Assembly (NCBI RefSeq): GCF_011057715.1
Contig: NZ_LNGH01000036.1
Location: forward strand, 1-49,800
Origin: Marinitoga sp. 38H-ov
GTDB taxonomy: Bacteria > Thermotogota > Thermotogae > Petrotogales > Petrotogaceae
Direction: 5' to 3'
Length of the DNA stretch: 49,800 bases
Shown: positions 30,430 through 33,697 of the stretch, piece after piece
Position numbering within the stretch: the first letter of the stretch is position 1
Layout of the letters: each line of letters starts with the position of its first letter
The notes under the pieces: model-generated
Told to the model about the DNA's origin: nothing
The model's input: the letters and a program-made list of their open reading frames with translations, nothing else
Databases searched by the model: none
Translations under genes and position numbers: made by a program

Positions 30430-31062
30430 TTAACACTCAAATTTTGTAATATTAATTCTTCTTGTAGCAATTTTTTTAAACTCATCTATATGAGTCACCA
30501 TAATAACAGCTTTATTATTTTCCATTGCTTCAAATTTTATTTTTGATATAATTTTTTCTTGAGTCATCTTGTCTAAAGCAGTAAAAGGTTCATCTAATAC
30601 TAAAGCTTTAAAATTTTTTGACATCATTATTGCAAGATATAATTTATTACGAGTTCCTTGTGACAAATTTTTAACTAGTACATCATAATATTGCTCTATG
30701 CCAAAAAGTTCTATATACTCTTTTATTTTAGCATCATAATTATGATTTTCATTAAATAAATTTTTGTAAAATTTAATATTTTCACCAACAGTTAAATATT
30801 CATATAATGTATCTTCACTCAACACAAAAGAAATATTTTTTATTAAATCCTTATGTTCTAATAAATGCTTACCCTCAAAATAAACGTTCTTACCTCCATT
30901 TAATATAGCTCCAATACATTTTAATAAGGTAGTCTTACCAACTCCATTATCCCCTTCAATTAATAAAATTTCACCATTGTTAACTTTAAGATTAAAGTTT
31001 TTTAAAATCGGAATATCTTCATAACCAAAAGTTAAATTTCTTACTTCAATTAAACACTCCAT
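30430..31062 (-). CDS. ABC ATPase of the circular bacteriocin cluster
   Basis: This 210-residue ATP-binding subunit has Walker A GDNGVGKT at residues 37-44, a signature reading LSQGT in place of LSGGQ, Walker B ALVLDEPFTALD and a switch His in VTHIDE. It resembles the CirD/As-48D ATPases that act with the membrane proteins in producing, exporting or resisting circular bacteriocins. It starts 10 nt after the SpoIIM-type gene. It is the last readable gene of the cluster: only a 12-codon frame follows, where circularin clusters carry the small immunity gene. Confidence 0.88.
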   Translation of the reverse strand: MECLIEVRNLTFGYEDIPILKNFNLKVNNGEILLIEGDNGVGKTTLLKCIGAILNGGKNVYFEGKHLLEHKDLIKNISFVLSEDTLYEYLTVGENIKFYKNLFNENHNYDAKIKEYIELFGIEQYYDVLVKNLSQGTRNKLYLAIMMSKNFKALVLDEPFTALDKMTQEKIISKIKFEAMENNKAVIMVTHIDEFKKIATRRINITKFEC

Positions 31063-31072
31063 TTTTCTCCCC

Positions 31073-31672
31073 CTAATTCATAAATTTAATTCTTGAAACT
31101 ATAACTTCTACAATTGCTGCAATAAAAAATAAAATTACTAAAAAAATAATAGACCTTAATATGAATAACCCTAGCTTTATTAATTCACTTAGTAACTTTT
31201 CCTCTCTTTTTGTAACTTTTACAAAAGCATTAAATCCACGAATATACAAAACATATGGAATAACAACTGAATATGACATTCCTAAAAGTTCTATTAAACC
31301 ATGTGGAATCATTTTATAAACAAATATAATCATTGAATGAGAAATCAACGAATTTGATATTGACCCTAACGCAATCACATTTTGAATTAAAACATATAAA
31401 CCATAAATACCTAATGTTATTAATCCTAAAAAAATATTTTGAATAACCAATACTATATTATGTATAAAAACATTAAAAAAACTAACAGATTTTTCATATA
31501 TATCAGATACATCTGGTAATTTGCTGATATTTGTACAAAAAGTAATTGTAAAAATTGCTATTAATGATAATATATAAACAAATATTGTAGCTATTGCAAT
31601 ATTTTTATTTCTTACTATTAGATTTTTTAAATATTTTTGTAAAGTCTGCAGAATAATTACCCCTTTCAACAA
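31073..31672 (-). CDS. SpoIIM/DUF95-family membrane protein
   Basis: This protein of up to 199 residues has about five membrane segments and the family features of stage II sporulation protein M (NIFLGLITLGIYGLY in a helix, then IPHGLIELLG). DUF95 proteins are the most constant partner of circular bacteriocin precursors (CirC and As-48C types) and are thought to help maturation, secretion or immunity. The host type is not spore-forming, which supports the bacteriocin reading. The long frame starts at a TTG at 31672, 68 nt inside the upstream gene. A shorter start after AAAGGGG at about 31665 is possible. Confidence 0.82.
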   Translation of the reverse strand: MLKGVIILQTLQKYLKNLIVRNKNIAIATIFVYILSLIAIFTITFCTNISKLPDVSDIYEKSVSFFNVFIHNIVLVIQNIFLGLITLGIYGLYVLIQNVIALGSISNSLISHSMIIFVYKMIPHGLIELLGMSYSVVIPYVLYIRGFNAFVKVTKREEKLLSELIKLGLFILRSIIFLVILFFIAAIVEVIVSRIKFMN

Positions 31673-33317
31673 ATTCTAAAATATTATTTCTAATTCTCTG
31701 CATTACTAAGTATGTAAAACTTATTGTAATTATTTTAATTGAGCTTATTACTAATACTACAATTGGGATATTAATTTTTTCAAACAGAAGCAAAATTATT
31801 ATAGTAAATATTAATAACACACTTAGTATTCTAAACATTGCGTTTAAAGGATAAAATTCTTTAGTACCATATTGTAATATTTTTGTTTCGTCTAAATACT
31901 TTTCATAATTCTTATAATCCATTCTTGTATATATAAGGTTATTGGTTATATACATCTTAGGTATAAAAATTATTATTAATATAAGTTCTAAAACCAAAAG
32001 TATTATAAACCAAATTGGAGCTCCAAGTATTAAAGAAAAGATGAAAATGCCCCCAACTAATAAAATATAAGAAAATGTTTTCATTATATAAAAAAATATT
32101 ATTTTAGCTTTTAATAATTCTTTAATTTTAACCCCACATGTATTTGCAGTTATTAATGTATTATAGTCTGCAATAAAAGATAAGTTTGCAATCATCTTTA
32201 CACCAGTTGCTGAATTTATGTCTGTAATTAATAGCATCGATGAAAGTATTAACATAACTATATAAGAATTGTTAAATGGATATTTTAAAAATATTAATAT
32301 TACTGCAATTAAAAATGCAAAAGATCTGTCTAATATAAATATATAAAAATAATCTTTAAAATTAAATTTATATATAGAAGCAAACAGCGAAAACTCTTTA
32401 TCTATCATAGTTTTGTAAAAATTATCTAAATTAATAAACTTAAAAGTAATTTTTCTAAATAAACTCAGTAGATAAAAGTTATTAACGCGATACTGATAGT
32501 TTTCTTCATAATTATTATATTTACTATTTATATTTTTTAAAGTTCTTAAAGTAATAAAAATTATTATAATATCAAATATAAATATTATAATATTTATATT
32601 TAAACTATTTTGAATAATTAAATTTCCAACCTGGTTTAAAGAAAGCATTATATTTTGAAATAAACTATACAAAATATTCTTAGATTTTAATTCTAAGCTA
32701 AAAGTAATAAATAATTTAATAAAAAAATCTATGATTAAATAAACGAGTATAGCAGTTGTAGTCATTTCAAATAAATAGCTTAAAAAAGAAAATATACGTT
32801 TAATTTTTATATTTCCAATTTGCATTATAAAACTAAGTGAAAGTAATGCTATATATGTTATAATATACATTAAAATAAAAGCTACTATTTGATAAACTCT
32901 ATAATTTAATACTATACCTAAAATAACTGATAATAATATTACATTATTTTCAATAATGAGATTAATAAACATATTCCCTAATAAAATAACTCTAAACCGT
33001 TCCTTTTCATTTGGGATCTCTAAAATGAAATCATTTCTAAAAAACAATTTCCAGTCTCTATTGTCTATCTTTATAAATGTAGATAATAGAGGAATTATAA
33101 TAATTAAAATGTTTAATGATGGCATTTTTATTAAATATGTTACTAATATAATTGATAAAAATAGCATAAAATAATTTTTTGTAAAATACCATATTCCATA
33201 AAGTATCTTATCGATTTTGTAGCTTTTACTGAGAAATTTATATCTTTCATAAAAATAATTTTTATTAAGATTAAAAAAAAGACTAATATATAGCCTAAAC
33301 ACGTTAACTATACTCAT
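31605..33317 (-). CDS. large membrane protein of the circular bacteriocin cluster
   Basis: This 570-residue protein has many hydrophobic helices (about 12) and little soluble sequence. No family motif can be named from sequence alone. Its size, topology and place between precursor and DUF95 gene match As-48B/CirB, the large membrane proteins of about 560 residues thought to take part in leader removal and ring closure. It could also be read as an ABC permease working with the ATPase encoded two genes later. The ATG follows GTAGGTGATG. Confidence 0.75.
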   Translation of the reverse strand: MSIVNVFRLYISLFFNLNKNYFYERYKFLSKSYKIDKILYGIWYFTKNYFMLFLSIILVTYLIKMPSLNILIIIIPLLSTFIKIDNRDWKLFFRNDFILEIPNEKERFRVILLGNMFINLIIENNVILLSVILGIVLNYRVYQIVAFILMYIITYIALLSLSFIMQIGNIKIKRIFSFLSYLFEMTTTAILVYLIIDFFIKLFITFSLELKSKNILYSLFQNIMLSLNQVGNLIIQNSLNINIIIFIFDIIIIFITLRTLKNINSKYNNYEENYQYRVNNFYLLSLFRKITFKFINLDNFYKTMIDKEFSLFASIYKFNFKDYFYIFILDRSFAFLIAVILIFLKYPFNNSYIVMLILSSMLLITDINSATGVKMIANLSFIADYNTLITANTCGVKIKELLKAKIIFFYIMKTFSYILLVGGIFIFSLILGAPIWFIILLVLELILIIIFIPKMYITNNLIYTRMDYKNYEKYLDETKILQYGTKEFYPLNAMFRILSVLLIFTIIILLLFEKINIPIVVLVISSIKIITISFTYLVMQRIRNNILEFVERGNYSADFTKIFKKSNSKK

Positions 33318-33354
33318 TTCATCACCTACATTTAATTATATAACAATTTAACAA

Positions 33355-33396
33355 TGAATATAGGTAACAACACTTAATCCATTGCTACCTATATTC
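33355..33396 (-). promoter_or_regulatory. stem-loop between precursor and downstream genes
   Basis: GAATATAGGTA at 33355-33365 pairs perfectly with TACCTATATTC at 33386-33396 over a 20-nt loop. It lies between the precursor gene and the large membrane gene. No T run follows it, so it more likely stabilises the precursor mRNA end or slows read-through than fully terminates. Confidence 0.55.
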
Positions 33397-33414
33397 CGCT
33401 TTTAAACTAATCAT

Positions 33415-33446
33415 ATATAATAATAATAATAATAATAATAATAATA
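33415..33446. repeat. ATA/TAA trinucleotide microsatellite
   Basis: About ten TAA units in a row stand just downstream of the precursor stop codon. Simple repeats of this length change copy number readily. Here a change would alter the spacing between the precursor and the stem-loop. Confidence 0.8.
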
Positions 33447-33475
33447 TTTTATTAAATAATTCACTTAAATTATTC

Positions 33476-33697
33476 TTAAAGAAGAATTGCGGCTTTTCTA
33501 GATAAACCTTTTATTGCTTCTCTTAATCCCATTTTTACTGCTTGTTTCATTAATGCAGCAACTCCACCACTTACAATACCAGCTACTAAAAATCCAGCAT
33601 CAATCATCCATGCCCACCAAGCAGCGCCTGTTAGGTAATCATAAATTAAATTTCCTGTTGACCAACTTACACCAAGCACTTCAATAATTTTTAACAT
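33476..33697 (-). CDS. circular bacteriocin precursor (AS-48/circularin-like)
   Basis: This 73-residue peptide has a very short leader (about MLKIIEV or less) and a hydrophobic core that begins LGVSWSTGNLIYDY. It then has a helix, a central glycine turn (AGIVSGGVAALM) and a basic amphipathic C-terminal helix (KQAVKMGLREAIKGLSRK) ending in AAILL. AS-48, circularin A and uberolysin share this plan: 60-70 residues, a saposin-like helical bundle, ISxGG-type turn, cationic helix 4, hydrophobic last residues, no cysteine. The mature peptide would be joined head to tail and act on membranes. The ribosome binding site GGAGGGAGG is strong. Confidence 0.85.
   Translation of the reverse strand: MLKIIEVLGVSWSTGNLIYDYLTGAAWWAWMIDAGFLVAGIVSGGVAALMKQAVKMGLREAIKGLSRKAAILL

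Follow-up and report, generated by a model that had tools for sequence, protein, structure and literature searches.

Does a thermophile of the Thermotogota, bacteria enclosed by a sheath-like outer membrane, encode a circular bacteriocin? We addressed this question with a 49,800-nucleotide stretch of Marinitoga sp. 38H-ov (contig NZ_LNGH01000036.1, positions 1 to 49,800; henceforth the window); it is contig 36 of an assembly of 56 contigs that totals 2.26 Mb. Four open reading frames (ORFs) on its minus strand, at 30430-33697, had been proposed from the sequence alone (the sequence-only reading) to form a circular bacteriocin cluster. We conclude, with a probability of about 85%, that an insertion in the window carries an operon of the AS-48/circularin type that makes a ring peptide. 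We favour this conclusion because of the gene order A-B-C-D, the SpoIIM protein encoded by C, the relatives of D, the profile alignment of the precursor, the traits of its core, its purifying selection and the presence of a precursor beside each SpoIIM-domain gene found in Thermotogota. The gene content and order that had been proposed, and a remote full-length homology to AS-48-type precursors, held up, whereas the curated precursor models were not matched.

Gene content and order of the operon

The four leftward ORFs lie exactly where the sequence-only reading had placed them and follow the circularin/AS-48 order A-B-C-D. Gene A (33476..33697, minus strand) encodes a 73-residue precursor with a predicted leader of three residues (MLK, 1-3) and a predicted core of 70 residues (I4-L73). 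Its ATG start codon is preceded by a strong ribosome-binding site, AAGGAGGGAGG, and the SGG motif noted earlier occupies residues 43-45. Gene B (31605..33317, minus strand) encodes the expected 570-residue polytopic membrane protein, with about 12 hydrophobic segments; it matched no family in Pfam or NCBIfam, and we consider it the counterpart of AS-48B/CirB given its AS-48B-like position and size. Gene C (31073..31672, minus strand, TTG start) overlaps the end of B by 68 nt and encodes a 199-residue SpoIIM/DUF95 membrane protein with four hydrophobic segments, which passes the cut-off of the Pfam SpoIIM model (PF01944, E-value 2.3e-12). The profile check that had been suggested for this protein gave an hhalign probability of 97% to the C proteins of known circular bacteriocin clusters. 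Gene D (30430..31062, minus strand) encodes a 210-residue ATP-binding cassette (ABC) transporter ATPase (PF00005, ABC_tran, E-value 6e-23), so that both family assignments made by eye were confirmed.

According to PMC8534725 and PMC8659200, circular bacteriocin clusters are recognized by a precursor gene together with SpoIIM/DUF95 and ABC ATPase genes, and the window operon contains all three. PMC8659200, PMC8534725 and PMC13289728 further describe SpoIIM in an A-B-C-D order as a mark of these clusters. The same order is found in the AS-48-type plasmid pPD1, in an Anoxybacillus plasmid where an annotated circular-bacteriocin gene adjoins B, C and D, in a rumen metagenome-assembled genome (MAG; RUG13451) and in a genome of a sister genus (G007). 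Because it recurs in the rumen MAG, the sister genus and two Bacillota plasmids, the order is beyond chance. Among the clusters compared, D was closest to its counterparts in RUG13451 (56% identity) and G007 (39%), with 31% identity to AS-48 D.

Two characterized systems are particularly informative. The AS-48 cluster (BacA, pPD1) resembles the window operon in its A-B-C-D order, a B protein of 556 aa, a SpoIIM C, an ABC-type D and a cationic, cysteine-free core of 70 residues with equivalent ends. It differs in its long leader, in the small protein, efflux adaptor and further ABC genes that follow D, and in a C-terminal W where the window has L; its similarity to window A is detected at the profile level only. 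Circularin A (cirABCDE) has a three-residue leader and the ABCD order. Both are common to the window, where the leader is predicted, but a gene for CirE-type immunity was not recognizable in the window.

The precursor and its rumen relative

Searched alone against Pfam, NCBIfam, PHROGs, PADLOC and PDB, A had no meaningful match. It is not placed in the TIGR03651/PF09221 (circularin A/uberolysin) families, and its relationship to circular bacteriocins is therefore based on profile comparison and gene context. We therefore built a profile from window A and the RUG13451 precursor and compared it, using hhalign, with the precursors of AS-48 (pPD1), Listeria, Anoxybacillus and G007. The profile aligned over its full length with the known precursors (E-value 1.7e-4 for a single comparison, probability 50%), and the probability rose to 66% once the precursors of a second Marinitoga cluster (cluster-2, below) joined the targets. 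None of 300 column-shuffled controls reached its score. With Bacillota precursors as the only targets, again none of 300 shuffles did so, although very narrowly (21.2 vs 21.1), and only residues 38-72 were aligned. In the full alignment, A 1-73 pairs with AS-48 44-116, I4 faces the first mature residue of AS-48 and L73 faces its C-terminal Trp. This pairing of I4 and L73 with the mature ends yields the predicted MLK leader and 70-residue core, and the very short leader of the sequence-only reading is thus probably three residues long. Known leaders range from 2 to 48 aa (PMC8534725).

When a profile of window A and G007 A was searched against the PDB, AS-48 was the best chain (E-value 0.0016) and circular bacteriocins held ranks 1, 2, 3 and 5. 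The profile of window A and RUG13451 A alone did not retrieve AS-48 from the PDB, and the match therefore depends partly on G007 A. Circular bacteriocin cores are about 58-70 aa long, lack cysteine pairs and are hydrophobic with a basic region (PMC7132975). The predicted core of A agrees with this description: it has 70 residues and no cysteine, an isoelectric point of 9.3, a grand average of hydropathy of 0.85 and a net charge of +5 in its second half, where AS-48 also has its positive charge. Hydrophobic core ends are a further trait of the class, and both ends of this core, I4 and L73, are hydrophobic, as placed by the alignment and the predicted cleavage site. Its homology to a characterized circular bacteriocin is at the profile level only.

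A scan that covered about 85,000 species, with window A and G007 A as queries, returned one locus, in the uncultured rumen Lachnospiraceae MAG RUG13451 (CADANF010000009.1; L044). Its precursor has 73 residues, is 84% identical to window A and is followed by B, C and D genes. The two clusters share the A-B-C-D order, a stem-loop between A and B and an upstream ACCGGTT; they differ in that the rumen B is present as two overlapping ORFs, in a mesophilic rumen host and in B-C-D proteins that are 35-56% identical (B 36-40%, C 35%, D 56%). We know of no study of the RUG13451 cluster. Between the two clusters, nonsynonymous divergence (dN) was 0.16 for A and 0.36 for D, and synonymous divergence (dS) was 1.3 and 2.3, respectively. 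These estimates indicate that A is under purifying selection and that its divergence from the rumen copy is old. A recent transfer between rumen bacteria and Marinitoga was rejected because synonymous divergence (dS 1.3-2.3) approaches saturation; the shared cluster is thus old or arrived through intermediates. Profile searches at three ranks to which RUG13451 belongs (family, class and phylum), with about 400 genomes for each, detected no third close member, and neither IMG/VR scans with four precursor queries nor a plasmid search with window C returned anything. Nine circular clusters of Lachnospiraceae have recently been reported (PMC13289728).

The rumen B is split into overlapping frames of 214 and 346 aa (L044 2723-4379), and the annotated Listeria B (L043 6201-7873) matches just the second part of AS-48B. 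Together, these observations suggest that B may be made of two separable parts. The sole feature that window B shares with the AS-48, Listeria and G007 B proteins is a motif of the DY(K/T)N type close to the C-terminus.

The proposed product and competing explanations

The following route is drawn by analogy with the cleavage, ligation, export and killing of characterized relatives. The 73-residue A would be made as a precursor and its MLK leader then removed. I4 at the new N-terminus would be joined to the C-terminal L73, giving a cationic, cysteine-free ring of 70 residues with a mass of about 7419 Da. Powered by the ATPase D, the membrane proteins B and C would perform or assist maturation and export and may provide some self-protection. 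Once released, the peptide would enter competitor membranes through its cationic face and permeabilize them. For characterized relatives, the cyclization mechanism and the leader peptidase are described as still unknown (PMC8659200, PMC8534725). With a peptide 84% identical and machinery only 35-56% identical, the two clusters highlight those residues of B, C and D that have to be retained for handling one peptide, and this bears on the problem, as yet unsolved, of which protein closes the ring.

Several results weigh against a circular bacteriocin. A was unmatched by PF09221 and TIGR03651 (E-value up to 1), as was its rumen copy (E-value up to 10), and the profile search against circular bacteriocin families that had been proposed as a check was thus negative for both models. 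The profile-profile probability for A is only 50-66%, and the profile gave no score against the cluster-2 precursors taken alone. AlphaFold2 modelled A, from two sequences, as one helix at low confidence (predicted local distance difference test, pLDDT, 69; predicted template modelling score 0.32) and produced a meaningless model of B (pLDDT 43). The structure prediction suggested as a check for a saposin-like bundle of four or five helices in A gave no usable fold. Comparison of B with known B proteins yielded no significant match (hhalign 8%). After D, the operon strand has no ORF of more than 31 aa as far as 29.03 kb, and no gene for a dedicated immunity protein was found there. Finally, decayed genes share the insertion with the operon, and its expression is not assured.

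This last point leads to the likeliest of the rival explanations, namely that the operon is an inactive remnant of a horizontally acquired island in decay, in which A-D have stayed unbroken by chance. The operon and decayed sequence lie within a 7.5-kb insertion (27552..35038) for which the closest Marinitoga congener has an empty site: window positions 27551 and 35039 are only 22 bp apart in that genome (G001, L060 8351 and 8374). The flanks, 85-86% identical to this congener, show that the contig truly belongs to Marinitoga and is no contaminant. The flanking genes, named from sequence as a major facilitator superfamily transporter and a family-3 glycoside hydrolase, are adjacent in the congener, which shows that it is the window that carries an insertion. 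At its left end (27600..28300, plus strand) are OrfA/OrfB-like pieces that resemble a broken IS3 transposase; they were read by eye without profile confirmation and are interrupted by frame breaks. This broken transposase, the other decayed frames, a very low G+C content (19-24%), the lack of a detected immunity gene and the visible degeneration of a second cluster copy in G007 all favour decay. On the other hand, the frames of A-D are all intact, including a gene of 570 codons, the ribosome-binding site of A is good and the A-B stem-loop is present. The low dN/dS of A and D relative to the rumen copy also argues for function, although it covers the whole divergence and not only the time spent in Marinitoga. 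We consider an inactive remnant unlikely.

We regard as less probable still that A is a linear leaderless bacteriocin or a holin-like membrane peptide exported by B-C-D without circularization. The best Pfam hint for A was a phage holin family (PF16079), but the match was weak and partial and fell far short of the cut-off (15.4 bits against 29.2, E-value 0.023; 0.031 for the rumen copy). A Trp-rich AWWAW stretch, a leader no longer than three residues and the single long helix of the low-confidence AlphaFold model would also suit such a peptide. However, the SpoIIM gene within an A-B-C-D order marks circular-bacteriocin clusters, A aligns over its full length with AS-48 precursors, both ligation ends included, and leaders as short as 2 residues are known (PMC8534725). 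That the ring peptide serves in signalling or in membrane roles directed at the cell itself, instead of killing competitors, is very improbable: the precursor is indeed more conserved than the machinery between two distant hosts (84% vs 35-56%), but the AS-48 and Listeria clusters show the same tendency in weaker form (core 82%, B 47%, C 51%, D 58% identity) and AS-48 is an antibiotic.

Beyond the circular-bacteriocin reading itself, window A and its rumen counterpart might represent a separate subgroup of circular peptides that is invisible to current models, remains near-constant while its maturation genes diverge, and has moved between outer-membrane Thermotogota and gut Firmicutes. Taken as a whole, we find this extension doubtful. 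If true, the constancy of the peptide could reflect a specific target or a function beyond non-specific pore formation.

Related clusters and neighbouring elements

We searched 103 Thermotogota genomes for related genes. SpoIIM-domain genes occurred at three places, with a precursor adjoining each: window C, the G007 cluster and a second cluster on contig 22 of the window's own genome, the third falling below the Pfam cut-off. Window B had no relative in this set besides itself and one chance match, a weak B-like hit within broken frames of another genome (G029). Most weak A-like matches lay within longer unrelated frames and were rejected.

G007, from a sister genus in the same family, has a full A-B-C-D operon (L009) whose precursor is remotely related to window A and passes both PF09221 (3.4e-9) and TIGR03651 (1.4e-15). 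This cluster resembles that of the window in gene order, an MFK leader and identities of 30-33% for A, 39% for D and about 28-30% for C. It differs in the TIGR03651 membership of A, in additional small membrane genes and in a B that is not recognizably similar to window B. Downstream of the operon come two small membrane genes and then an outer-membrane efflux/HlyD/MacB set (L024 653-5872), in which a pair of outer-membrane efflux proteins is accompanied by an HlyD-like adaptor, an ABC ATPase and a MacB-like permease. This set recalls the adaptor and ABC genes downstream of AS-48, with outer-membrane parts added, and might serve for export across the toga. G007 also has a degenerate second copy (L023 5088-6091), about 9 kb away from the intact one, in which the precursor is reduced to 53 aa by an in-frame internal deletion and the start of B is fused to the end of D. 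Its small membrane genes remain whole, as though the presumed immunity genes alone had been kept.

The second cluster of the window's genome (G000 contig 22, L039 5335-8503) encodes a precursor (TIGR03651 E-value 2.3e-14), a B of 441 aa, a SpoIIM-like C, an ABC-type D and a 165-aa membrane protein. It is conserved in Marinitoga piezophila KA3 (L040) and in a further genome (G006, L041), where B is in two frames. These three cluster-2 loci share the precursor, B, SpoIIM-like C and ABC D with the window operon, and differ in a hydrophobic leader of about 20-27 residues, precursors that pass PF09221/TIGR03651, a B of 396-441 aa where intact and the additional 165-aa protein. Compared alone, their precursors had no detectable similarity to window A. 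The Thermotogota-like host of the sequence-only reading was corroborated by a congener contig (13,386 bp) that was 100% identical, over 12,000 bases compared, to M. piezophila KA3 plasmid NC_016748.

The expectation that circular bacteriocins come only from Firmicutes was not upheld. A 2020 survey counts 6,925 precursors for Firmicutes, 2 for Actinobacteria and 1 for Thermotogae (PMC8534725), so Thermotogota hosts are not new, and the Marinitoga and sister-genus clusters described here add to them. For the same reasons (the survey record and TIGR03651-positive clusters in both genera), the novelty claimed for a cyclic peptide from a thermophile is weaker than stated. Unusual heat stability is conjecture, as circular bacteriocins of mesophiles are already heat stable. 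Circular bacteriocins as a class are known; what is new is a precursor subgroup outside current models, its co-occurrence with another, unrelated-looking cluster in a single Marinitoga genome, the insertion and its empty site, and the contrast between a near-constant peptide and diverged machinery. A literature text search for the stretch AWWAWMIDAG found no paper. Mining with precursor models misses members, given that a genome with one recognized cluster held a second, unrecognized one. If made, the peptide would be a circular bacteriocin of a thermophile with an outer membrane, and we know of no study of circular bacteriocin export in such an organism.

A small dedicated immunity protein is a usual companion of these clusters, although outside the minimal criterion used by surveys. 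As no such gene was found after D, self-protection would come from B-C-D, the second cluster or elsewhere. A 28-aa hydrophobic ORF (MLLRVILNAILLVIFIIVLVYFNNSKEK, 29405-29491), 0.9 kb beyond D with a strong AGGAGG site in front, may be a relic or else a very small immunity peptide.

Two candidate regulatory elements accompany the operon. The gap between A and B contains a stem-loop with a 17-bp stem (33356..33396, minus strand; RNA fold z -3.9), which recurs in RUG13451 (z -3.0) and G007 (z -2.4). It is a possible attenuator giving more A than B-D; such stem-loops would be expected if A is needed in excess. Upstream of A, the palindrome AATCAACCGGTTGATT (33757..33772) is a possible operator; it is partly retained in RUG13451, where ACCGGTT lies upstream of the precursor at a similar distance. 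The window contains a single copy of AACCGGTT, whereas 0.03 are expected.

Also within the insertion are the frame-broken remains of a rubrerythrin-like gene (28659-29200, by eye). Outside it, an ABC exporter gene at 24460-25988 was read as the adjacent ORFs 24460-24996 and 25011-25988, which are probably a single gene with a break.

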